64,000 nucleotides of DNA from Phorcus lineatus (lineage: Eukaryota; Mollusca; Gastropoda; Trochida; Trochidae): the NCBI GenBank assembly GCA_921293015.1, contig OV121087.1, forward strand, positions 40,782,630-40,846,629. Direction: 5' to 3'. The notes below the pieces were generated by a model, which saw nothing but the letters and a program-made list of their open reading frames with translations, searched no databases and was not told the origin of the DNA. Position numbers and translations under genes: made by a program. The first letter of the stretch is position 1. The number at the start of each line of letters is the position of its first letter. Positions 3,683 through 62,245 of this stretch are shown one piece after another.

Positions 3683-4834
3683 TCTAGTCTCTGTTGGTAG
3701 ACTGAATCTAGTCTCTGTTGGTAGACTGAATCTAGTCTCTGTTGGTAGACTGAATCTAGTCTCTGTTGGTAGACTGAATCTAGTCTCTGTTGGTTGACTG
3801 AATCTAGTCTGTGTTGGTAGACTGAAACTAGTCTGTGTTGGTAGACTGAATCTAGTCTCTGTTGGTAGACTGAATCTAGTCTCTGTTGGTAGACTGAATC
3901 TAGTCTGTGTTGGTAGACTGAATCTAGTCTGTGTTGGTAGACTGAATCTAGTCTGTGTTGGTAGACTGAATCTAGTCTCTGTTAGTAGACTGAATCTAGT
4001 CTGTGTTGGTAGACTGAATCTAGTCTGTGTTAGTAAACTGAATCTAGTCTCTGTTAGTAGACTGAATCTAGTCTCTGTTAGTAAACTGAATCTAGTCTGT
4101 GTTGGTAAACTGAATCTAGTCTGTGTTGGTAGACTGAATCTAGTCTCTGTTGGTAGACTGAATCTAGTCTCTGTTGGTAGACTGAATCTAGTCTGTGTTG
4201 GTAGACTGAATCTAGTCTGTGTTGGTAGACTGAATCTAGTCTCTGTTGGTAGACTGAATCTAGTCTCTGTTGGTAGACTGAATCTAGTCTGTGTTGGTAG
4301 ACTGAATCTAGTCTCTGTTGGTAGACTGAATCTAGTCTGTGTTGGTAGACTGAATCTAGTCTCTGTTGGTAGACTGAATCTAGTCTGTGTTGGTAGACTG
4401 AATCTAGTCTCTGTTGGTAGACTGAATCTAGTCTGTGTTGGTAGACTGAATCTAGTCTCTGTTAGTAGACTGAATCTAGTCTGTGTTGGTAGACTGAATC
4501 TAGTCTGTGTTAGTAAACTGAATCTAGTCTCTGTTAGTAGACTGAATCTAGTCTCTGTTAGTAAACTGAATCTAGTCTGTGTTAGTAAACTGAAACTAGT
4601 CTGTGTTAGTAAACTGAATCTAGTCTCTGTTAGTAGACTGAATCTAGTCTCTGTTAGTAGACTGAATATAGTCTGTGTTGGTAAACTGAATCTAGTCTGT
4701 GTTGGTAGACTGAATCTAGTCTGTGTTGGTAAACTGAATCTAGTCTGTGTTGGTAGACTGAATCTAGTCTGTGTTAGTAAACTGAAACTAGTCTCTGCTG
4801 GTAGACTGAATCTAGTCTGTGTTGGTAGACTGAA
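3683..4834. repeat. 24-bp minisatellite, 48 copies, no indels
   Basis: Exactly 48 units of 24 bp (1152 bp) run without a single insertion or deletion. Each unit reads TCTAGTCT, then S-TGTTRGTA, then RACTGAA. Two sites vary most: CTCTG versus CTGTG, and TTGGTAGAC versus TTAGTARAC. AGTCT and AGACT within each unit are complementary across an ~8-nt loop, so each unit can form a small hairpin. Because 24 is divisible by 3, the minus strand stays open for about 400 codons (an 8-residue repeat, TETRFSLP/TQTRFSLL type). I read this as a by-product of the unit length, not as a gene. Bases 3961-4103 are identical to 4441-4583, a 20-unit (480-bp) offset that shows block duplication. Confidence 0.95.
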
Positions 4835-4840
4835 TCTAGT

Positions 4841-15331: not shown

Positions 15332-16684
15332 AATTACGGAATTGAAGGCAGCTTTTTAAAATGGTTTGAAAGTTATCTAAACGATAGAACCCAGAGGGTT
15401 GTTATCAATGGACACGCGTCAAACCCTCAACCTGTCTTGGCAGGCGTCCCTCAAGGTTCCGTTTTGGGACCTCTGTTGTTTATAATATACATTAATGATA
15501 TTGTAGATGATATTGATAGTAACATCAGACTTTTCGCAGATGATACTTCTCTTTACGTTATAATTGACGACCCCGACAAAGCTGCCAACTGTTTGAATAA
15601 TGACCTATTGCTAATTTCAAAGTGGGCGAAAAAATGGAAAGTGTCATTTAATCCTAAAAAAACGAAATCAATTCAGTTTAGTAGAAAGATAAACCGAAAC
15701 ACTAAACCGAATCTCACAATGGACGGAGAAAGAATTCAGGAAGTAGAACACTATAAGCATTTAGGTCTGACTCTTCAAAATAATTGTCACTGGGATATTC
15801 ACATAAACTCGATTATCAATAAAGTTAGCCCTTTGATAAACTGCTTAAGGAGCCTAAAATATCGTTTATCACGAAAAAGTTTGGATATTATTTATAAATC
15901 TTTCATCTTGCCAACTTTTGACTATTGCGGCCACATTTGGGATAATTGCACCAAACAACAGTGCATTTTACTCGAAAACTTGAATCTAGACGCATTGAGA
16001 TCAATTTGTGGAGCAGTCCGCGGGACAAGCCATAACAGTATTTATGAAGAAACTAATCAAACACCCCTATCGGAACGTAGAAATATATCTAAATTGACAA
16101 CGTTCTACAAAATGAAGAATAATATTGCGCCTCAATATCTATGTAATCTTCTACCTCCAATACCTAACAATAACTACAACCTCAGAGAAAATTCATCCGT
16201 CCGAACTGTAAAATGTAGGACAGCGTTATATGCAAGATCGTTTTTACCTGAAACAATAAAACTGTGGAATTCCTTAACTCCTGACGTTCAAAGTATTGAT
16301 ACATTATCCGGTTTCAGAAATTCAGTTCAAGGACCCGGTAATAAAACTACTACTTTCGATCTTAACTATGGTCCACGAATTTGCCAGATCATCCACTCTC
16401 GCCTCAGGCTCCACTGTAGTGACTTGAACGCTGATAAGTTCAACAGACATATCATCGAAAGCCCGGCCTGCTCCTGTGGTCACCCAGTCGAAAACGCTGT
16501 CCACTATTTCTTCACTTGCCATAAGTACATAGAATTAAGACAGAAATCATTCTTTTATCTGAAAGGATTTGGTATCAAAACGGTTCTGCAGGGATGCACA
16601 TCGCTCTCATTAAGTGATTCCAATAGATTATTGAACTCTATTCATCATTACATAATGAAATCAGATCGATTTGATATTTCATAA
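15332..16684 (+). pseudogene. 5'-truncated LINE: C-terminal part of a reverse-transcriptase ORF
   Basis: Non-LTR retrotransposon ORF2 fragment that would reverse-transcribe element RNA at a nicked target. The frame opens after a stop at 15329 and runs 450 codons to TAA. It starts in the middle of the RT domain (YGIEGS..WFESYLNDRTQRVV), continues with VPQGSVLGPLLF, the catalytic FADD box (residues 33-36 counted from the TTG at 15437) and HYKHLGLTL, and ends in a Cys/His motif CSCG-x6-H-x4-C typical of many LINE C-termini. There is no start codon in the RT region, and endonuclease, ORF1 and the N-terminal RT motifs are absent. This fits the usual 5' truncation during target-primed reverse transcription. 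The remaining frame has no stops or frameshifts, so the insertion looks fairly young. Clade (jockey, CR1 or similar) not assigned. Confidence 0.9.
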
Positions 16685-28242: not shown

Positions 28243-28800
28243 ATGAATGGATTGATAGCCAAAGAATGGATGGATAGACAAAGGATGAACAGATAGGCAA
28301 AGGTAGAATGGATAGGCAAAGGATGGACAGATAGGCAAAGGATGGATGGATAGGCAAAGGATGGATGCTAAGGCAAAGGATGGATGGTTAGGCAAAGGAT
28401 TGATGGATAGGCAAAGAATGGATGTATAGGCAAAGGTTGGATGGATAGGCAAAGGATGGACAGATAGGCAAAGGATGGATGGTTAGGCAAAGGATGGATA
28501 GATAGGCAAAGGATGGACAGAAAGGCAAAGGATGGATGGTAAGGCAAAGGATGGATGGTTAGGCAAAAAAGGGATGGATAGGCAAAGGTTGGATAGATAG
28601 GCAAAGGATTGATGGATAGGCAAAAAAGGGATGGATAGGCAAAGGTTGGATAGATAGGCAAAGGATGGACAGAAAGGCAAAGGATGGATGGTAAGGCAAA
28701 GGATGGATGGTTAGGCAAAGGATGGATGGTAAGGCAAAGGGAAGGAAAGAGCTAAAAGGATGGAAGGATAAGTAGACTTCAGGATGGATAGATGGATAGG
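28243..28800. repeat. ~20-bp tandem repeat, about 26 copies
   Basis: Units alternate AGGCAAAGGATGGAT with a variable 3-6-base linker (GGAT, GGTT, AGAT, CAGA, GGTA). Unit length is 19-21 bp. Blocks of several units recur: GGGATGGATAGGCAAAGGTT starts at both 28571 and 28628, and a GATGGACAGAAAGGC block recurs about 150 bp apart. The minus strand is open in several frames (His/Pro/Leu/Ser repeats such as LPIHPSFAY) simply because the period gives no regular stops. Confidence 0.93.
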
Positions 28801-36726: not shown

Positions 36727-37340
36727 TATAAGGCATTGAAGGGTTCCATTTTGTCTTCGAAGTTTCACAATTTGAAGCACGCATAATGCATTGAAGGGTT
36801 ACAAAATCGTCTTTGAGTTTTCAAATATTGAAGCATGCATAAGACATTTATGGTTTGTCACATTGTCTTTGAGGTCTCAAATATTGAAGCATGCATAAGA
36901 CATTTATGGTTTGTCACATTGTCTTTGAGGTCTCAAATATTGAAGGGTGCACAAGGCATTTAAGGTTTGTCATTTTGTCATTGAGGTTTCAAATATTGAA
37001 GCATGTATAAGGCATTTAAGGTTTGACATATTGTCTTTGAGTTTTCAAATATTGAAGCTTGCATAAGGCATTTAAGGTTTGACATATTGTCTTTGAGTTT
37101 TCAAATATTGAAGCTTGCATAAGGCATTTAAGGTTTGACATATTGTCTTTGAGTTTTCAAATATTGAAGCTTGCATAAGGCATTTAAGGTTTGACATATT
37201 GTCTTTGAGTTTTCAAATATTGAAGCTTGTATAAGGCATTGAAGGGTTACAATATTGTCTTTGAGGTTTCAAATATTGAAACTTGCATAAGACATGTAAG
37301 CTTTGTCATATTGTCTTTGAGGTTTCACAAATTGATGCAT
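36727..37340. repeat. 56-bp tandem repeat, 11 copies
   Basis: Unit starts fall at about 36727, 36781, 36837, 36893, 36949, 37005, 37061, 37117, 37173, 37229 and 37285. Each reads GCATAAGGCATTTAAGG, TTTGACATATTGTC, TTTGAGTTTTCAAATATTG and AAGC. Copies 3-4 share a private variant (CACATTGTC, GAGGTCTC) and copies 7-9 are virtually identical, so the array grew by successive local duplications. Outer copies are more diverged. Confidence 0.95.
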
Positions 37341-38924
37341 GCTAAATAAAAAACAGATTAAAAATTTAGAATTAATTGTGATGTAACCATGATGTTTATA
37401 ATTTGTCAAAGAGACAAATCATGATCAAATCTTTTTGATGACTCCTATAAAAGGTTCTGTTGTTAAAATTTGATTTGATCAATAGCTGCGAATTTTACCC
37501 AATTAGTCTGTTTCTGTGATATTAACCTTTCATTTTAATGAAACTACCACTTAGAAAACAAAAAAATTTGATTAAGATTTTTTTTTATAAATAAAAGAAT
37601 TGTGCAGTCTATAGTTTAGATATGAAAACAAATTGCTTTGTAGAAGATAATTCATTCCATTTAATGATATGAAATAAGCATACCATGGTGCAGTGAATTT
37701 TTTTTAGAGTTAAGGCCCCTTACTTGAATGCTTCACATTTTGCTTGACCAAATTTAGAATAACAATACCTGTCTTTAAGTTTCAAAATCAACACCTGAAG
37801 ATTACAATATATGATCCATCTTAATAATCCTTCAAATAACTGCTTTTTAAGGGAATCCGTAGTGCATAAATAGGGCACACTGTTAGGGTTGATGTGTTCT
37901 TGGAGCACTCTTTTTAGTCAAGGGGACGAGATTTGAGTCTAGATAAAAGTTGACATTTAGAATTCCTGCAACTAAGACTGTTTATATGATTTTTCCCAAA
38001 ATAATCCAAGATTAATTATCTGAAAGTAAGAGTAGGGTCTTCCATTGTCCAACAAATAGGCCATGCCTTCCGAGAAAACAGGGTGGGAATGATTATCCCC
38101 AGAATAAATATTTACCAAACTGACATTTTTGCACAAAGAGTATAAATAACAAAGTTCTCATCACTGTCCAATAAATCTGCCATATAAATAAATATATATA
38201 ATGAAGGTATGATAACATTTTTATAATAATTCACTTTAAATTGATGTTTTTAAAAAATATTGTTTAAGTTAAACTAGCTTATTTGAAACTGTAAATTCCG
38301 TTCAATCAATACTTTTCTGATTACGAAATTTTATATTTTTGTTTTTATTTATTTGTGAAGTTCATTATCACCGAACTTAAATATCTGATGAACATTTGCA
38401 ACCATTGTCTAATCTTACTATACACTATCTAACACATTTTCATGAATCTCATTGAAATGTTATAAGATTATTTAAATTGTAATAGTTTTTAGATTCTTGA
38501 ACAAAGCATTTTTGGTTTTAAAAAAAAGAGACAAATGATTTTATTATGCTCAAGAAACAACTTCCTCGCTGCTTGATGATTAATAATACTATCTGTATTC
38601 CTGAAGGATAATAGAGCAAGGAGATAAGGACCTTGCCACACTCCAGAAACCAGTTGAAATATTATCATGTTGAGGGACAATGCTTATTGTTAGCAAATTT
38701 AAAATTCAATTTTCTGTTTCAAGTTCCTGACTGGTATCCACAGTATGTTTTGACATAAGCTATAAGATTACTAAGTGCCTATGCATTATGATAAACCAGT
38801 GATTTACAGAATGGAAAAATACACACTAAGTATCCATAGGCTGTTATTGGAGATATAGGTTATGGGTTAATATTTAGTGGTGTAATGGTTAATGTGATGT
38901 TCTCTCATAATCATCAAAAGTTTT
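37341..38924. other. non-coding stretch
   Basis: AT-rich. Minus frames of 62-63 codons (37720-37908, 38489-38680) have no recognisable domain. No gene is supported. Confidence 0.45.
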
Positions 38925-49692: not shown

Positions 49693-49696
49693 TTAA
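49693..49696. repeat. TTAA target-site duplication, left
   Basis: Matches the TTAA at 56115-56118 directly outside the other terminus; piggyBac transposases insert at and duplicate TTAA. Confidence 0.88.
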
Positions 49697-49706
49697 CCCT
49701 TAAGAT

Positions 49707-49836
49707 GCGGGTCCCGGAATATTCCGGGATGAAATTAGCTTTGCCCGCAAGTCCTCTTAGCGGGATGCGAGTAGCACACTCTATTTTTCTCACGCTAACT
49801 AATTATGACCGCGGGTCTCGGTAGCGGGTCCCGGAA
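49707..49836. promoter_or_regulatory. left subterminal palindrome and repeated 13-mer
   Basis: Bases 49712-49729 (TCCCGGAATATTCCGGGA) are a perfect 18-bp palindrome 15 bp from the terminus. The 13-mer GCGGGTCCCGGAA overlaps it at 49707-49719 and recurs at 49824-49836. Placement next to the terminus suggests a transposase-binding site, by inference only. Confidence 0.45.
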
Positions 49837-50194
49837 ATTTATTGCCTAGCAGTAGTCTCAGTTCAACGATTGTATTTTCGTTCCGGCTGCCGCTAAGCTA
49901 CCGTGTTTTGTTTCGTTGGTGGTCTAAATAATGCGCGAACATGCTCCGAAAGTTATGAGAATATTGATAATGTTTATCGTACCGAAAATAAGCGTTAAAA
50001 TCACTCAATTTTCCCCCACTCCCCGCCGCACGTGCTAATAGCCTGTGGGCACTTTCTAGCCTCTCGCACGAGCTTACCGACCCGCGCGTGCTATCGTTTA
50101 CTGAGACGCGTGCATTTTGACCCTATGCACGCCTTCCTATCGCACGCCCTATGTTCTGAACCCTTGGGCGGATTTCAATATAGGTGGGATCATT

Positions 50195-51190
50195 TGAAAG
50201 AGAAAACAAATGTCTTTAATTCGATGTAAAAAACATATGTGCGCCTCGTGAAATAAAGATACCGCATGTGCCGCAAAAAAGGTGATTTTTATATATTTTT
50301 AGTTTTACACTGTTTTGTCACACCAATTTTCTCATGGTGTGCTCAACATATTTTGACATTTTTTATATCACAAGATAGAGAAAAAGATTGTCTTTAATCC
50401 CATGTAAAATGTGTACATGCGCAACAATTCATAAAGATACAGCAAGCGCCGCACAAAAAGGTAATTTTGCCGACTTTCTTATCATGTGATCTGAAGCGCG
50501 ATTTTCATGTGCCTTTCTTTCACAATGAATTTCTTTTACACCGTGAAAAAGATTTTGTTGAATTTTACAACACTATAAAGACAAATGAATTGTCTCTAAT
50601 TCCCTATATCAATTATTATGCGCGCAAATAAATAAAGACTCAACAAGTGCCGTAAAAAGAACAACTTTCGCACTTCGCAATTCCGTTAGTGACGCAAATA
50701 GGGAAACTTTGGCACTTCATATCCCCGTGTACAAATGACACATTTCAAAACCATTTATATCATTATCAAGAGGAATAAATTGTCTACAAAGTGATATATA
50801 AAATGTACATGCGCTAAAACAAACGACGATGCAGCAAGCGCCGCACAAAGGGTTCTTTTCATGTGATCTGAAGTTCGATTTTCATGTACCTTTCTTTGGC
50901 ACTCGATATTTTCTATACCACTTGGCGGATTTTGATAAATATTACGTCTAAATAAAGACGGAACGTTGTTCTTCATTTCAATATATTGATCATACATGCG
51001 CACACAAAAATAAAGGCACAAGAAGTGCCGCAAATTTGGCAAGTTTCGCATTTCGTATTTCTGTAACCAAGTGGCGCGCTCAACAACGTTTGGTATCAGC
51101 GTAAAGAGCAGAAAATTCTCTTCAGTTTGATATACAATTTGTTTATGCGCTCATAGAAATAAAGACTCAACAAGCGCCGCTAAAATGTTA
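50195..51190 (+). repeat. left array of ~190-bp modules in the piggyBac-like element
   Basis: Six diverged modules share GTCTTTAATTCCATGTA, an ATGTACATGCGCAA-like core, ATAAAGAT and CAGCAAGCGCCGCA. Their GCGC cores fall at 50241, 50419, 50620, 50811, 50999 and 51147. Alternate modules resemble each other more: GTGATCTGAAG-CGATTTTCATGT follows modules 2 and 4, and CGCACTTCG/CGCATTTCG follows modules 3 and 5. This suggests a two-unit higher-order repeat of about 380-390 bp. No ORF of interest. Confidence 0.8.
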
Positions 51191-51344
51191 TAAATAAATG
51201 TAATAAGTAAAAAAATTATGAAGGAAACCCTGTTTCTTTAGTGTTCAATTATAGAGTTTTATAAACCATGAAAGTTGAAGGAAAAAAAACTTTTGGATTT
51301 ACATTCATAGCGTTATTGATGTCTTTTTTGAGTTAGGGGATTTT

Positions 51345-51612
51345 TGCGTCGGGCACCGCCATCAGTTCATGGGAAAATTGTCCAACGAAAATGTTGTGGT
51401 TGAGACACAGTATGTCGGGGATGCCGTCGGGAACCGCCATCAGGTCAAGGCAAAGTTGTCCAACGAAAATGTTTGTGGTTGAGACACAATATGTCGGGGA
51501 TCTTTCGCCGGGCACCGCCATCAGGTCATGAGAAAATGTGTCCAACGAAAATGTTCGTGTTCGAGAAAAAAAATTTCAGCGGACTTTCGTCGGGCACCGC
51601 CAGCAGGTATGT
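51345..51612 (+). repeat. ~80-bp tandem repeat, about 3.3 copies
   Basis: GGG(C/A)ACCGCCATCAG starts at 51351, 51429, 51510 and 51592, each followed (in the first three) by GTCCAACGAAAATGTT, GTGGTTGAGACACA and ATGTCGGGGAT. The last copy is cut short at CAGCAG|GTATGT, which looks like a splice donor. Confidence 0.85.
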
Positions 51613-51984
51613 GTTTTTTTCTGCCAAATTTTTGTTGGTCGAGGAAACTCATTTTTGAAAAAAAAGTTTGGTAGCATTCCGATGTTTTAAATAATTTGCT
51701 ATATATGTCGGGATGGCATGAGTTCCTTCCAGTGAACTAAAGACAAGGGGCCGGGTGCTCGTTGACTACGGCCGTCCCGACGGATAGGCCCGTGGAACCT
51801 ATCATTCTCGGAAGAGAAGTCAAAAGTTGAAAAACGTTTGTAATCCACAACTGACAATCAGAACTTTCCTGACGTAGAAGGCAGTTGTTCGCGACTCGCC
51901 GGCTCGTTGCATAGGAGTCAGAAGGCGGCATCAGGGTTGATAATGTTGATACAACGTCGGCGGCCGTCAGTGCCATCGGCACCT

Positions 51985-52115
51985 TCGGCGGGATTGTGAA
52001 AAGTCGTCCAAAAGTTAGAAAGTGTCCGGCGACATTAGAACTTGTTCGGCTGGATTGTGAAAAGTTGTCTGAAAGTTAGAAATTGTCCAGCAATGTTAGA
52101 ATTTGTCCTGATTTG
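51985..52115 (+). repeat. ~63-bp tandem repeat, two copies plus fragments
   Basis: GGATTGTGAAAAGTYGTC, AAAGTTAGAAA, TGTCCRGC and TTAGAA occur at about 51986 and 52049. Further AAATGTCCGG strings continue to about 52180. It lies directly upstream of the transposase gene. Confidence 0.75.
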
Positions 52116-52326
52116 TTATTTTTGCAAATCGTGAAACAAAATGTCCGGCTTTCGCCAGGACAATTAGAAAATGTCCGGATTATTGATGACCGCTGGCGCC
52201 AAAGGCGCGCAACGGCAAATTTGTTTCAAACACTTACAAAATGTGGCAATTGAATGTCCATGAAGCTCACATTGAATTTCTCTGTACAACAGGTCATGTG
52301 TTGATGTTATTATATCTTGCGTGTGC

Positions 52327-52352
52327 CTAAATTATTTTCAATCATTTACAGA
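52327..52352 (+). promoter_or_regulatory. possible splice acceptor in the transposase 5' UTR
   Basis: A pyrimidine-rich run ending in TTTACAG lies about a dozen bases before the start codon. A possible partner donor is CAGCAG|GTATGT at 51606. Inference only; no transcript evidence. Confidence 0.35.
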
Positions 52353-52364
52353 TTGATGTGAAAG

Positions 52365-54359
52365 ATGCCTAAGGCCAGGAGGCCGCGAACCAGGAGTTGG
52401 GAAGGTCCGTCAACGTCTAGCGACGACGACTTCATCAACGAGGTCCATGCCGATGAAGCTTCTGATATGGAATCAACTGATGAGAGTGATAGTGACAGTG
52501 ACAGTGACAGTGATAGTGAAAGTGACATTGATAGTGATCAAGAAATAAGAAACATTGCAAGAGACATATTAGCTGGTACGGGTGAAACTGCTACGGCTGG
52601 TACTTCCACAGAGGAAGAGTTCAGTGGCTTTGACGAGCAATATAATGAAATGGACACACATTTTGATGACCAAGATAATTTTATGGATCGCTGGGAAGAG
52701 GGGCCGAGGCAACGTGGACGTGTCGAATTGCATTTTACTGGCGCAACGGGATTAGGACGGTTTATAGAATTGCCTGATAACCCGCAACCTGTAGACTTTT
52801 TCGGACTGTTTTTTCATGAAGATGATTATGGATCATTGGCAGCAGAAACCAACAGATACTTCCACCAACAGGTCGATGATAAGGTTCTGAAACCCTGTTC
52901 ACGGTTGAGGCACTGGTATGATACGAATGCCGAAGAAATGAAAGTATTCATTGCAATGACAATAGCAATGTCTCTGGTTGTACAGAGAAACTTTTCTGAG
53001 TATTGGTCAACAAGTGATGTTACGTCGACGCCCTTCTTTTCCAAGTGCATGCCCCGCGACAGGTTCTGGCTACTGCTAACGTATCTACATTTGAATGATA
53101 ACAACCTAATGCCGGGACGAAACACTCCGCATTTTTCACCAATGAATAAACTTGGCTATCTGTACCAACGCATCGTGCATCGTTTTTCCAGAGTTTATAA
53201 GCCGCATCAAAACATTTGTGTTGACGAAGGGTTGGTGCCTTGGAAAGGCAATCTGAGTTTCAAAGTATATAATCCCGACAAGCCGAAGAAGTATGGGATA
53301 AAGGCCTACATGTTGTGCGACTCAACAAATGGTTATGTTTGCAAGTTCAAACTCTACACTGGAAAAACAAATGAAGCTGTTTCTGTTGGTGGGAAAACGT
53401 ATGATCTCGTCATGGACTTGGTGAAGGAATATGCTGGGAAAGGGTATCATGTGTTCATGGACAATTTCTATTCCTCGGTGGCATTGTATATAAACTTGTG
53501 GGAAATGGGAACTGGTGCGACGGGAACTTTGAGAGGAAATCGCAAAGGCATTCCTGAAAAGCTAAAGAAGGCACAGAAGAATCAGAAGAAAGGGGATATG
53601 ACAATCTATCACAATCAAGACCTACTCGTTTTGCGGTATGTGGACAGGAAGTCAGTGTTGCTCATGTCAACCGTAGAAGACGCCGAAATTGTAGAGACAG
53701 GAAAGAAGAACCGAGTGACTGGGGAAGCAAATACGAGACCACGTATTGTGCACGAATACAACAAATATATGGGAGGTGTGGATCGGGCCGACCAGATGCT
53801 GTCGTACACCCCGTTCAAAATGAAAACTCTTAAATGGTGGAAGCGCGTGTGGTTTCATGTGTTGAACGTTGCCATGTTGAATTCTTACATTATCTATAAA
53901 GAATTCTCAGAAGACAAACCTTTGAAAACAAGCCGTCAATTTAGAAAAGATTTGGTGCAGCATATGATCACCTTCGCCGAAACAGAAAAAGTGCCCTCCC
54001 TGCGCAGACGTCCTCGCGGCCGGCCGAGCACGAGCGACGATAGTGTCTTGCGACTCCATGGTCGTCACTTTCCATCAAAGATTCAGCCTGTTGGAAAGAA
54101 GAAAAACCTAACACGCATGTGTGTTGTTTGCTCCAAAGCGAATAGAGAACTTCGTCGAAGGGAATTCGAAGAAACAAATCAGCCAGTTCGAAAGAAGAAA
54201 AGGGTAGGCAAAGAATCTTCTTTCGAATGTATCGAGTGTAATGTGGCTCTATGTGCAGCACCATGTTTCAGAATTTATCACACGTCACAAGATTGCACTA
54301 AAGCTTATATCAGTTTGATGTCAGAGAAGGAAAATGAGGGGGATAATCAAGAAGATTGA
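52365..54359 (+). CDS. piggyBac-like transposase (DDE_Tnp_1_7 type), 664 aa
   Basis: Cut-and-paste transposase that excises the element and inserts it at TTAA in the nucleus. The N-terminus is acidic, with a Ser-Asp repeat (residues about 38-58). The catalytic domain spans about residues 140-515, and its three aspartates are visible: D287 in ICVDEGLVPWKG, D366 in HVFMDNFYSS and D473 in GGVDRADQM. The spacings (79 and 107) are close to those of insect piggyBac (D268, D346, D447). A basic stretch (RRRPRGRP, about 547-554) precedes a Cys/His domain (C586, C589, C622, C625, C630, C634, H639, C644) like the cysteine-rich domain that binds transposon ends. No stop or frameshift is seen. The ATG at 52365 is preceded closely by TTATTTTCAATCATTTACAG, an acceptor-like site, so a 5' UTR intron is possible. 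AATAAA follows at 54464. Confidence 0.96.
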   Translation: MPKARRPRTRSWEGPSTSSDDDFINEVHADEASDMESTDESDSDSDSDSDSESDIDSDQEIRNIARDILAGTGETATAGTSTEEEFSGFDEQYNEMDTHFDDQDNFMDRWEEGPRQRGRVELHFTGATGLGRFIELPDNPQPVDFFGLFFHEDDYGSLAAETNRYFHQQVDDKVLKPCSRLRHWYDTNAEEMKVFIAMTIAMSLVVQRNFSEYWSTSDVTSTPFFSKCMPRDRFWLLLTYLHLNDNNLMPGRNTPHFSPMNKLGYLYQRIVHRFSRVYKPHQNICVDEGLVPWKGNLSFKVYNPDKPKKYGIKAYMLCDSTNGYVCKFKLYTGKTNEAVSVGGKTYDLVMDLVKEYAGKGYHVFMDNFYSSVALYINLWEMGTGATGTLRGNRKGIPEKLKKAQKNQKKGDMTIYHNQDLLVLRYVDRKSVLLMSTVEDAEIVETGKKNRVTGEANTRPRIVHEYNKYMGGVDRADQMLSYTPFKMKTLKWWKRVWFHVLNVAMLNSYIIYKEFSEDKPLKTSRQFRKDLVQHMITFAETEKVPSLRRRPRGRPSTSDDSVLRLHGRHFPSKIQPVGKKKNLTRMCVVCSKANRELRRREFEETNQPVRKKKRVGKESSFECIECNVALCAAPCFRIYHTSQDCTKAYISLMSEKENEGDNQED

Positions 54360-54463
54360 AGAAAGAAGAAAGAAGCAGAAGTGTGGATGAGCGTTACTCT
54401 CCTTATAAAGTTTATTCTTCACATCAATAAGGTGAATAAGTGTAATATAAAATACTGATTGTC

Positions 54464-54469
54464 AATAAA
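54464..54469 (+). terminator. polyadenylation signal AATAAA
   Basis: A canonical AATAAA lies about 105 bases after the transposase stop, followed by a T-run (54476-54483). Likely the transcript end signal of the transposase gene. Confidence 0.6.
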
Positions 54470-54634
54470 ATAATCTTTTTTTTAAGTCGTAAAAGAGACA
54501 GAGAAAGTCAATGTGAGCTGTCACTGGACGTTCGATACGAGCCGCATCACGAACCTACCCCCGATCTTTCGCAATTTGTTTTCTTAGAATCGGGTGGCGA
54601 AACTTCATACTTTTTACATCATCGTAAAGGGAAA

Positions 54635-55835
54635 AGAACTGGCTTTAATTTATTATGAAATGTGTATGTGCGCAACACATAATAAAGAAGCGGCAAATAA
54701 TGCGAGAAATGTCGCAATTATCAATTTTTTTCCCCAAATGTCTGAGGGTACCCCTCTTTAACGGTTCATATCTCCCGAACTATTTGGCACTTTTTAAATT
54801 TTTTTCCACCTTTCTCAAGCGGAAAGAATGATCTTTAATTCCATGTATAATATGCATGTGCGCAATTAATAAAAATGGTGCAGCGAGTGCTGCGACAAAT
54901 GTCGCAAATAAAACGATTGTCAAAATCTATTTTCAAGTAGTTGAGGGTGTCGCTCTTTCGCGGTTCATATCTCCCGAACTATTTTATACTTTTTTATATT
55001 TTTTTCACCTATTTCAAGGGAATATAATTGTTTTTAATTCCATGTATAATATGCATATGCGCAGTCAATAATAACGATGCGGTGGATGATGCGACTGGTG
55101 TCGCAAATAGAACGCTTATCAAAATTTGTTTTCAAGCAGTTGAGGGTATCACTCTTTCGTTTTTCATATCTTTTGAACCAGTTGGCACCTTTTCATTATT
55201 TTTTCACAGTCGTAAGGACGAAAGATTTATCTTTATTTCCATGTATAATTTGTACATGCGCAGCAAGAAATAACGATGCGGCGTGCGTATAGAATGATTG
55301 ATTTTATTATCTCGGAATGTTCGCCCGCGTGTGACTGCACGCGCCGAGAGGATCGGTACAGCAGGAAGCAACGCTGGTGCTTAGAACACTGGCACTCGCA
55401 TGCTGGTGCCTCGGGGGTGCCCCGGGGGTATAACGGTACTAATTAGCGTACCGATGCCAGACTGCCCAAGGGAGAATTAGTTCTGGCTAAAAATCCCGTT
55501 ATGTCGGAGCATCCTCGGGGTACCCCCAACCATCTTTCGCGGCGTATATCTTTTGAACAGGGTGACATATTCTAACAATCTTATATCATCATAAAGAAGA
55601 ATAAATTGTCTACAATTCCATATATAATACATGTATGCGCGCTAAGTATTAGGGATTTTATTCAGCCGGAAATAAAGACAATCTTTAGATAATTGTAGAA
55701 ATCTAACTAGAGGTCGCATTGTATATCATCGTAAAGAGGAATAATGTATCTTCAATTCCATATAAAAAAATTAATTGTGCGATTATATTTAAGGATTTTC
55801 CGTAACTCTAAATAAAGACAATCTTCATATTGCAA
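54635..55835 (+). repeat. right array of ~190-200-bp modules in the piggyBac-like element
   Basis: Modules in the same orientation as the left array share CTTTAATTCCATGTATAATA, ATGCATATGCGCA and TGTCGCAAATA. Their GCGC cores fall at 54670, 54860, 55059, 55258 and 55637, with a decayed one near 55779. CGGTTCATATCTCCCGAACT also recurs about every 197 bp (54764, 54961). One module position is replaced by a GC-rich insert at about 55290-55540, which holds CGGTAC and GTACCG stems. Confidence 0.8.
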
Positions 55836-56009
55836 TAGAAACCGTTCTAGGTAAGATAAAAATTTCATTCAAAGTGTCGGATAAAGATCGTTCATTTGTG
55901 TACGGGATTGGCGGGCTAGTTTTGTATCGAACGGTCAGTTCCATCCGTAATCCGCCATGTGAATACACCATTTATCGAAAAAAACAGCCGCGACTCGCGG
56001 TGCGAAATA

Positions 56010-56114
56010 ATTCAGCCACAGGGGCTAATTGCGTTATTACCGTAGCGAGGCGAGTGCTGGAAAATTCAGCCACGGGGGCAAAACTGGTCAAAATAATATT
56101 CAGCAACGGAAGGG
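56010..56114 (+). repeat. right subterminal repeats of the piggyBac-like element
   Basis: ATTCAGC(C/A)AC occurs at 56010, 56064 and 56098, the first two continuing as RGGGGC. They may be transposase-binding repeats. The 23.5-kb remnant keeps this region too. Confidence 0.5.
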
Positions 56115-56118
56115 TTAA
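56115..56118. repeat. TTAA target-site duplication, right
   Basis: Directly follows the CAACGGAAGGG terminus; partner of 49693-49696. Confidence 0.88.
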
Positions 56119-56840
56119 AGTTAGTGAGTTATTGTTTAGAGCTGCTTGGTCAATAATTTAGCCGTTGTCAGTGTTAGCTTCTATATGGACTGTTAATAAA
56201 TTAACTGCATGGTGATGTCTTTTCATCGTTAAGAAGTTTTAGATCATTTGTTTACATCTTTTAAAAGAATTGTTGATAGATTCACAGTTTTTTGTTTTAT
56301 CTTTGAAAAATGTTCCTTAGGAGTAATTGTATCCTAATAGAAGTGAACACTTCTTTTACTTCCTCCAATCTCGGAGAGTCTTGTGTAACAGGAAGTTGTT
56401 GAGAACCCTGTTAGGAGTTTGAAGTAGCGATAGAGGAACAGTGTGAGGAGTTCAAGTGAGTTGATGGAAGGAGAACCAAACCTACGATCAAAACCAAAAC
56501 CAAACCTTGTATGGCATGATTTTGAATCTTTGAAAACTAACACTGTAAAAATCTAAATAATGTTTGAAAGCTGAATTCCAAATGGAGATAGCACAAATTG
56601 AGGTCACTTTTTTGCATTTGTTGAAATAATTCTAGTTATTCAAATCATAAAAATTAGCTATAACATTTTGGATTAAGAATTCTGATTTAGGAATCACACT
56701 AGAGATTCTACATATTTGCTGTTATGTACAGATAATTCTTGATGGATACGATTACGTTCCTGTTTAATGAAAAACATAAATGACAAGGATTTCCAGTTAA
56801 AGATGATACATGGTGAGGAAAGGTGTCATACGAGTGTGGG
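56119..56840. other. non-coding stretch
   Basis: AT-rich. A 69-codon minus frame (56334-56543) has no recognisable domain. No gene is supported. Confidence 0.45.
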
Positions 56841-57135
56841 TGCTTGTATCAACGGGTTGAGTGCTTGTATCAACGGGTTGAGTGCTTGTATCAATGGGTT
56901 TGAGTGCTTGTATCAACAGGTTGAGTGCTTGTATTAACGGGTTTGAGTGCTTGTATCAACGGGTTTGAGTGCTTGTATCAACTGGTTGAGTGCTTGTATC
57001 AACAAGTTTGAGTGCTTGTATCAACGTGTTTGAGCACTTGTATCAATGGGTTTGAGCACTTGTATCAACGGGTTTGAGCGCTTGTATCAACGGGTTTGAG
57101 CGCTTGTATCAACGGGTTTGAGCGCTTATATCAAG
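56841..57135. repeat. 21/22-bp tandem repeat, 14 copies
   Basis: The unit GAGTGCTTGTATCAACGGGT(T) alternates between 21 and 22 bp through one extra T. Late copies share GAGCGC or GAGCAC in place of GAGTGC, so variants are grouped by position. Confidence 0.95.
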
Positions 57136-61569: not shown

Positions 61570-62245
61570 CACAATTGCTCAATGTTTTATGTTCCTGATA
61601 TAGTGTATATGTTCCTGATACAGTGTATATGTTCCTGATACAGTGTATATGTTCCTGATACAGTGTATATGTTCCTGATACAGTGTATATGTTCCTGATA
61701 TAGTGTATATGTTCCTGATACAGTGTATATGTTCCTGATATAGTGTATGTGTTCCTGATATAGTGTATATGTTCCTGATATAGTGTATATGTTCCTGATA
61801 TAGTGTATATGTTCTCCGATAATGTCCATACCAATTCCATGAAAGTCTTTTAGAGATAATACAATCATAGATAGTGTCCATATTAAACAGAACAGTCTAA
61901 AATGGCTTAATATTTTATGTCGCTGATACAGTGTAAATGTTCTTCCGACATGTCAACATCAATTCCAAGAAAGTCCTTTAGAGATGACATATTTGAGAAT
62001 ATTGTCAAATATAAACTGGATGACAGTCTACAATGGCTTAATATTTTATGTCGCTGATAAAGTGTTAATATTCTCCTGTCATGTTGACACCGATTCCATA
62101 AAAGTCTTGAGATGACATAAGCAGATATGGTGTCAATATTCACTGGATGACAGACCCGATGGCTTAATATTTCATATCCTAGATATAGTCTATACATTTT
62201 CCGGTCATGTCACTGCAGTTTCCTGAAAATCTTTGAGAGATGAGG
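61570..62245. repeat. ~127-bp tandem repeat, 4 copies, with a nested 20-bp array
   Basis: Units starting ATGGCTTAATATTTTATGTCG lie at 61903, 62033 and 62159, with an earlier one around 61572 (CAATGTTTTATG). Each contains CTGATAYAGTGTA, TTCT-CCG-CATGTC, AATTCCA-GAAAGTC, GAGATGACAT and CTGGATGACAG. In the first unit the short piece GTTCCTGATAYAGTGTATAT has expanded into 11 exact 20-bp copies (61591-61810). The three overlapping minus-strand frames there arise from the 20-bp period. Confidence 0.92.

Follow-up and report, generated by a model that had tools for sequence, protein, structure and literature searches.

A one-direction module array flanking a piggyBac-type transposase gene in Phorcus lineatus and recurring in a gene-less partner element

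Results

Structure of the element

The window, a stretch of 64,000 nucleotides of the Phorcus lineatus genome, contains a piggyBac-type element of 6418 bp at 49697-56114 with TTAA on each side (Table 1). Its TTAA duplication, CCC-type tips and DDE_Tnp_1_7 transposase are those of the piggyBac superfamily. The pattern CCCTT..G.TGC, picked after the ends had been inspected, follows the TTAA at 49693 and occurs inverted at 56118; it has two matches in 64 kb and none in 100 shuffles. CCCTT is given as the most conserved piggyBac tip in the available part of PMC10813416. Twenty other copies, fetched from this genome, had the same start and end in 20 different flanks, and TTAA was present on the left in all of them and on the right in all except copy L021, where the site reads TTAG. 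Since copies with the same boundaries lie in different flanks, the modules described below are located inside the transposon.

Table 1 Features of the element, in window positions
Feature	Position	Strand	Remarks
Left TTAA target site duplication	49693..49696	.	Same boundary in 20/20 other copies with unrelated flanks
Left end (LE)	49697..50138	+	CCCTTAAGATGC tip; GCGGGT at bp 11-16; perfect 18-bp palindrome
Left array L1-L6	50139..51190	+	Anchors 50239, 50417, 50618, 50809, 50996, 51145; partly dimeric (~380 bp)
82-bp tandem repeat, 3.3 copies, 5' non-coding arm	51347..51608	+	Separate from modules; Tandem Repeats Finder
61-bp direct repeat, 2 copies, 5' non-coding arm	51984..52105	+	
Inner inverted repeat, left arm	52249..52285	+	39-column alignment, 87%, self-BLAST
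Transposase, intact, 664 aa	52365..54359	+	DDE_Tnp_1_7 E 1.6e-92; piggyBat 9c0f E 6.6e-71
Inner inverted repeat, right arm	54498..54536	-	Self-BLAST
Right array R1-R6	54561..55850	+	Anchors 54669, 54859, 55058, 55257, 55636, 55777
Right end (RE)	55851..56114	+	Three ATTCAGC[AC]AC motifs (56010, 56064, 56098); AAGGG tip
Right TTAA target site duplication	56115..56118	.	Intact in 19/20 other copies

The reading of this stretch from sequence only had described similar modules in the same direction, six upstream and about six downstream of a transposase gene, between 50195 and 55835. All of this was borne out: the Pfam match identifies the gene between the module sets as a transposase, self-BLAST and the anchors gave 12 related modules, six on each side and all on one strand, and the coordinates were nearly correct. 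The anchors are TGCG cores, which are present in all 12 modules. Neighbouring modules are 139-202 bp apart except for one 380-bp step, and a GC-rich interval at about 55310-55530 separates R4 from R5. Self-BLAST of 49.4-56.4 kb, used as a dot plot, gave the expected diagonals of about 190 bp on both sides, that is, direct repeats within each side, offset by about 178-199 and 380 bp and, in other alignments, by multiples of these or by 140-160 bp, and direct alignments of left against right at offsets of 3.5-5.2 kb. When each module was left out of the profile in turn, all 12 scored 28-76 bits, whereas 100 shuffles of each module never gave more than 5.0 bits, so that the modules align better than shuffled sequence. 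Outside the element, the best match of the module profile in 64 kb had only E = 4.7. Tandem Repeats Finder by itself detected just part of the right array.

Identity between modules, taken as whole 180-bp units, is 39-78% and mostly 45-57%. On the left, the top-scoring alignment is at an offset of 380 bp (62.8% identity), and L3/L5 (support 99) and L4/L6 (support 92) are sister pairs in the tree, which identifies L3-L4 and L5-L6, as judged from their sequences, as a duplicated dimer. The left dimer of about 385 bp proposed earlier therefore stood, while the alternation of modules was only partly real. The right array is monomeric across R1-R4, and R5 and R6 are a divergent type past the 380-bp step. 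An RNA gene inside the modules was ruled out by the lack of any Rfam match in 49-57 kb and of any tRNA in the 64-kb window.

GCGGG[AT] occurs in the LE at 49707, 49760, 49811 and 49824, and once more at 51988. The accessible text on piggyBat of Myotis (PMC11707139) places GCGGGA at bp 11-16, 55-60 and 99-104, and the LE is similarly laid out, with the GCGGG motif at bp 11-16, then a palindrome and the motif repeated inward. From this likeness we infer that the transposase probably targets the terminal ~130 bp rather than the modules. A motif scan found neither GCGGG[AT] nor the RE motif inside either array, and self-BLAST of 49.4-56.4 kb gave no alignment between ends and arrays; as far as known motifs go, the modules were rejected as additional transposase sites.

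The nearest solved structure to the transposase is piggyBat, and piggyBac chains also align. Asp 287, 366 and 473 fall in conserved motifs and are presumably the catalytic triad known from the family. A zf-Tnp_2 match reached 20.9 bits, under the cut-off of 24, and cysteines lie near residues 586-644. Comparison of subfamily W with B over 661 codons gave a dN/dS of 0.17; it was 0.33 for W-C and 0.50 for W-D, where in-frame stops (two and one, respectively) were skipped. Of 1746 first-look candidates, 67 transposases were scored, and 65 of these were free of stops. Judged by these substitution ratios, the transposase is under purifying selection. The only inverted self-BLAST match is a 39-bp pair, unrelated to the modules, which closely brackets the gene and is also found in the subfamily B and D copies. 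The idea that this pair marks a nested transposon was discarded, as no TTAA or CCC tip was visible there. The gene cassette (~51190-54560) as a whole is located within the array.

The window is rich in tandem repeats. A 24-bp minisatellite (48 copies, 94% matches) at 3683-4840 has long open frames on both strands with low-complexity Pfam matches (Cornifin) and is probably not a gene. A 22-bp array of 13.6 copies at 56840-57134 lies about 0.7 kb beyond the right end of the element, and other tandem repeats, with units of 19 bp, 56/112 bp, and 20 plus about 130 bp, are located at 28247-28740, 36728-37342 and 61588-62238, respectively. A 450-aa open frame at 15332-16684 with a partial reverse transcriptase (RVT_1, E 1.5e-15) is probably a LINE-like remnant.

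Copies and subfamilies in the genome

In the genome examined (958 Mb, 74 contigs), a 21-base left-end tag had 1024 exact copies and 1418 with up to three mismatches (reversed control, 3), and a degenerate transposase motif had 462 matches (control, 0). The 21 aligned copies, comprising the window copy and the 20 fetched, were 0.11-0.76% from their majority consensus. These counts and distances indicate that the piggyBac family is recently amplified, with hundreds of copies. All 20 fetched copies had 12 modules like the window copy, and the largest array indel among the 21 was 57 bp; copy L023 had big deletions within the gene. No array growth was seen among the recent copies. Since the modules are only 39-78% alike while the copies are 0.11-0.76% from the majority, the array long predates the current burst.

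A 30-base core common to R2 and R3 was found at 601 exact places, and the 100 places listed were singles or pairs 163-202 bp apart. Eight of 20 listed single cores were fetched, and all eight lay in elements that reached the same right end and had six right modules. These elements represented subfamilies whose identity to W was about 96%, 94% and 85-89%. A tree of the units was built from W, B, C, D, E (copy L030) and four gene-less copies, with one copy each of B, C and D. Units clustered by array position across subfamilies and not by element; concerted evolution of the units was thus not found in this tree. The single B copy has ten modules, without L5-L6, and the single D copy also has ten, without L1-L2 and without the left end, which indicates that older subfamilies do lose modules over time. 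Apart from these losses, the order of modules around the cassette is common to the autonomous subfamilies W, B, C, D and E. No relative of the element was confirmed in viral contigs.

A gene-less partner element with nine modules

On contig C1, 59 of 81 exact left ends were followed over 9 kb by neither the transposase motif nor the right-array core. The first 12 C1 left ends that lacked this core all proved to be copies of a single non-autonomous form, 2432-2469 bp long with TTAA at both ends, and each consisted of a left end, nine plus-strand modules and a right end. This non-autonomous form is probably the commoner one. The array makes up about 70% of the gene-less element; its weakest modules score 9-18 bits, and one or two weak antisense module matches per copy, of about 7-12 bits, overlap the arrays. 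No transposase match was found in the 12 copies by tblastn. In two copies AAGAG replaces AAGGG at the right tip. Copies L057 and L058, 7.2 kb apart, share their flanks, which points to a local duplication rather than two insertions, so the sample represents 11 independent insertions, not 12. Pairwise identity among gene-less copies was 91-100%, in at least three groups.

In the tree, gene-less module N1 was placed with L1, N2 with L2, N4 with the L2 type and N9 with R6; N3 was of left type with poor support, and N7 and N8 lay near R5. N5 and N6 were placed with R1-R4 at a support of 0.975 in one tree and only 60 in the other. The spacing of 178/198/178/198 bp (each +/-2 bp) ran unbroken from the left-type N4 to the right-type N5 in the four copies measured, and by-eye reading of the sequence found the spacer following module 5 to resemble that following R1. 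Left-type and right-type modules appear to meet in register in the gene-less form.

Past L2, identity of the gene-less units to the W unit nearest to each is only about 53-64%, which shows that the gene-less form is not a recent deletion of any sampled copy, and no fresh in-register deletion was caught among the sampled copies. For five gene-less copies, the 800 bp from the end were compared with those of autonomous W, B and C. In the first 400 bp, L052 and L056 matched W at 96-100%, and L055 and L061 matched B at 97-99%; past 400 bp, the identity of these four to W/B dropped to 77-93%. L062, with identities per 100 bp of 93, 83, 89 and 95 to W and of 78, 78, 96 and 95 to B, is a good match to neither in its left end, and no gene-less copy matched C throughout. 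We read the pattern in L052, L055, L056 and L061 as probable end exchange between autonomous and non-autonomous elements, which is to be expected if one transposase moves both forms.

Origin of the array

We favour, with modest confidence, a single long-lived and partly dimeric array of ~190-bp modules that is split by the gene in autonomous copies and continuous in the others. The gene cassette inside one old array would leave two long non-coding half-arrays, and one array with the gene inside explains why both halves run in the same direction. As direct repeats of each other, the halves would allow a left module to pair with a right module during excision-gap repair, a familiar mechanism, or in homologous recombination. 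Such pairing would drop the gene in register and yield an element without the gene that has both ends and can be transposed. Under this proposed mechanism, the array would be an inherited scaffold favouring the birth of non-autonomous partners, not a satellite. Because the gene-less units have diverged to 53-64% past L2, gene loss, or the opposite entry of the gene into the array, is old.

The reverse order, with the gene entering an array-bearing element, would fit the register equally. An element of two ends and an array may have gained a transposase cassette between two modules and so become the autonomous form, which we regard as possible and rather unlikely. The cassette sits between whole modules, as left homology stops past the GCCGC block (~51185) and right homology begins at the TTTCGC block of the next module (~54565), and the continuous form seems commoner on C1, with 59 of 81 left ends and every one of the 12 sampled. 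Against this, the cassette has no ends of its own that could be seen at the inner inverted repeat, the 22-mer marker of that repeat (393 places genome-wide) is close in number to the transposase motif (462), and W, B, C, D and E share their module order around the cassette, L5-L6 being missing in B and L1-L2 in D.

Tests for array function

The single split array favoured above may also be a functional part of the transposon, through in-register gene loss, a role in cis in transposition or both, with the gene-less form outnumbering its source; we regard this as possible but rather unlikely. A purely cis-acting array, with modules that serve as binding sites for a host protein or the transposase, or that space nucleosomes, and that are selected for expression or transposition, is likewise doubtful, and the observations divide. 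The array is present in autonomous and gene-less forms alike, takes up most of the latter (~70%) with its nine modules kept in 12 of 12, and has 11 gapped columns in about 1.7 kb among 11 gene-less copies. The 100-bp core is 58.8% alike, against 39-78% (mostly 45-57%) for 180-bp units, in an alignment anchored on the core. Between W and C, 17/449 core sites differ against 75/1159 other module sites (Fisher p = 0.04; the p values here are uncorrected for several tests), but core against spacer gives 17/449 and 28/676 (p = 0.88). Differences between W and B were 8/379 in cores, 21/965 in other module sites and 8/625 in spacers, and in gene-less copies 85/693 core sites vary against 155/1025 elsewhere in the array (p = 0.10). 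Conservation within the core was no more uneven than expected under a uniform rate, as 254 of 1000 simulated replicates reached the observed level, and the terminal motif is absent from the arrays. The D copy has no left end and the left end of the C copy is rearranged, which produces alignment artefacts in those rows; the comparison therefore left out the D and C left-end rows, together with the D array rows, which are artefacts in part. Across these tests, selection on module cores was weak or absent, and we rejected it.

That the gene-less form retains the array speaks against a promoter-only role. In the Daphnia piggyBac Pokey the pattern is reversed, and MITEs without repeats prompted its authors to suggest a role in transcription (PMC3849761, as far as its accessible text goes). 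The nucleosomal spacing suggested in the sequence-only reading agrees with the module periods, but the 10-bp A/T-dinucleotide rhythm is weak, as 29 of 200 left-side and 3 of 200 right-side shuffles reach it.

Searches for a satellite

A pattern of three ATGCGC at module spacing had 769 matches in the genome (reversed control, 72). On C1, where all places were listed, the longest module-type run had three matches, or about five modules, and 22 of 27 places adjoined another element marker (left end, transposase motif or right-array core); the other five were one 51-bp minisatellite, one unrelated sequence and three short module runs, at C1 positions 31566492, 34305044 and 34931808. The F-type subfamily module marker had 47 places, all listed, which were dispersed except for one pair (G000:C9:23663927 and 23664319, 392 bp apart), which suggests the gain of a dimer in one copy. 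These marker scans detect arrays with exact ATGCGC cores in assembled contigs, and among the places listed they revealed no long homogenised array outside elements, so the long arrays sought there did not materialise. A host satellite captured by the transposon, or a transposon now seeding one, as suggested earlier, is very improbable: unit size and dimer do resemble a satellite, and satellite-transposon links have been published for Tetris (PMC4079207) and Cg_HINE (PMC7492417) in the parts of those papers available, but no long array was listed, the F-type places are dispersed bar the one pair, and the modules are stable in number among recent copies, specific to their position and not homogenised, on which grounds we rejected the satellite as the main reading.

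Discussion

One array split by the transposase gene, the reading we prefer, has its nearest precedent, going by the accessible text of the source, in Daphnia Pokey, a piggyBac element that likewise has TTAA sites, ~200-bp repeats ahead of the transposase in its 5' non-coding arm, and non-autonomous relatives (PMC3849761). The earlier supposition that no described piggyBac has this plan thus needs qualifying: Pokey has ~200-bp tandem repeats, but the same plan was not found. According to the same text, Pokey has two to five repeats derived from the rDNA IGS, in the 5' arm only, which vary between copies and evolve in concert with rDNA, whereas the present element has 12 modules on both sides, in stable order and number in recent copies and without homogenisation. 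Pokey MITEs (mPok) are described there as lacking the repeats, while all 12 gene-less copies sampled here have nine modules. Pokey also inserts, besides other places, at a specific 28S rRNA site (PMC3849761, same text); the 20 fetched copies had 20 different flanks, and 49-57 kb was without an Rfam match.

Other systems share single traits, in each case as the part of the source available describes them. PiggyBat is described without an internal array (PMC11707139), unlike the 6.4-kb element here with its long arrayed arms. Cg_HINE of oyster is likewise gene-less with a satellite-like tandem middle, but is a non-autonomous Helentron and not a piggyBac (PMC7492417). Tetris, a foldback element of Drosophila virilis, has ~220-bp tandem repeats within the transposon; these lie in inverted terminal repeats and have expanded to satellite-like arrays, whereas the modules here are direct and no expansion was seen (PMC4079207). 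CMITE and CMITE-IN of coral are also TTAA-flanked, piggyBac-derived and non-autonomous with a conserved internal region, and CMITEs can form tandem arrays, but that region as described has no module array, in contrast to the modules here (PMC2872659). In the literature covered, mostly papers other than subscription ones, we found no piggyBac with stable one-direction arrays on both sides and a non-autonomous partner bearing the same array. A piggyBac with internal ~200-bp repeats is already known from Pokey, and what appears to be new is the two-sided stable array and the partner made of it.

Non-autonomous transposons usually retain little besides their ends. Here, an array is common to the autonomous and non-autonomous forms of a family of hundreds of copies and accounts for ~70% of the latter. 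A satellite-like array has been spread genome-wide by cut-and-paste without, as far as seen, turning into a satellite, and the family makes it possible to test directly whether a transposon spawns its own parasites more readily when it has internal tandem repeats.
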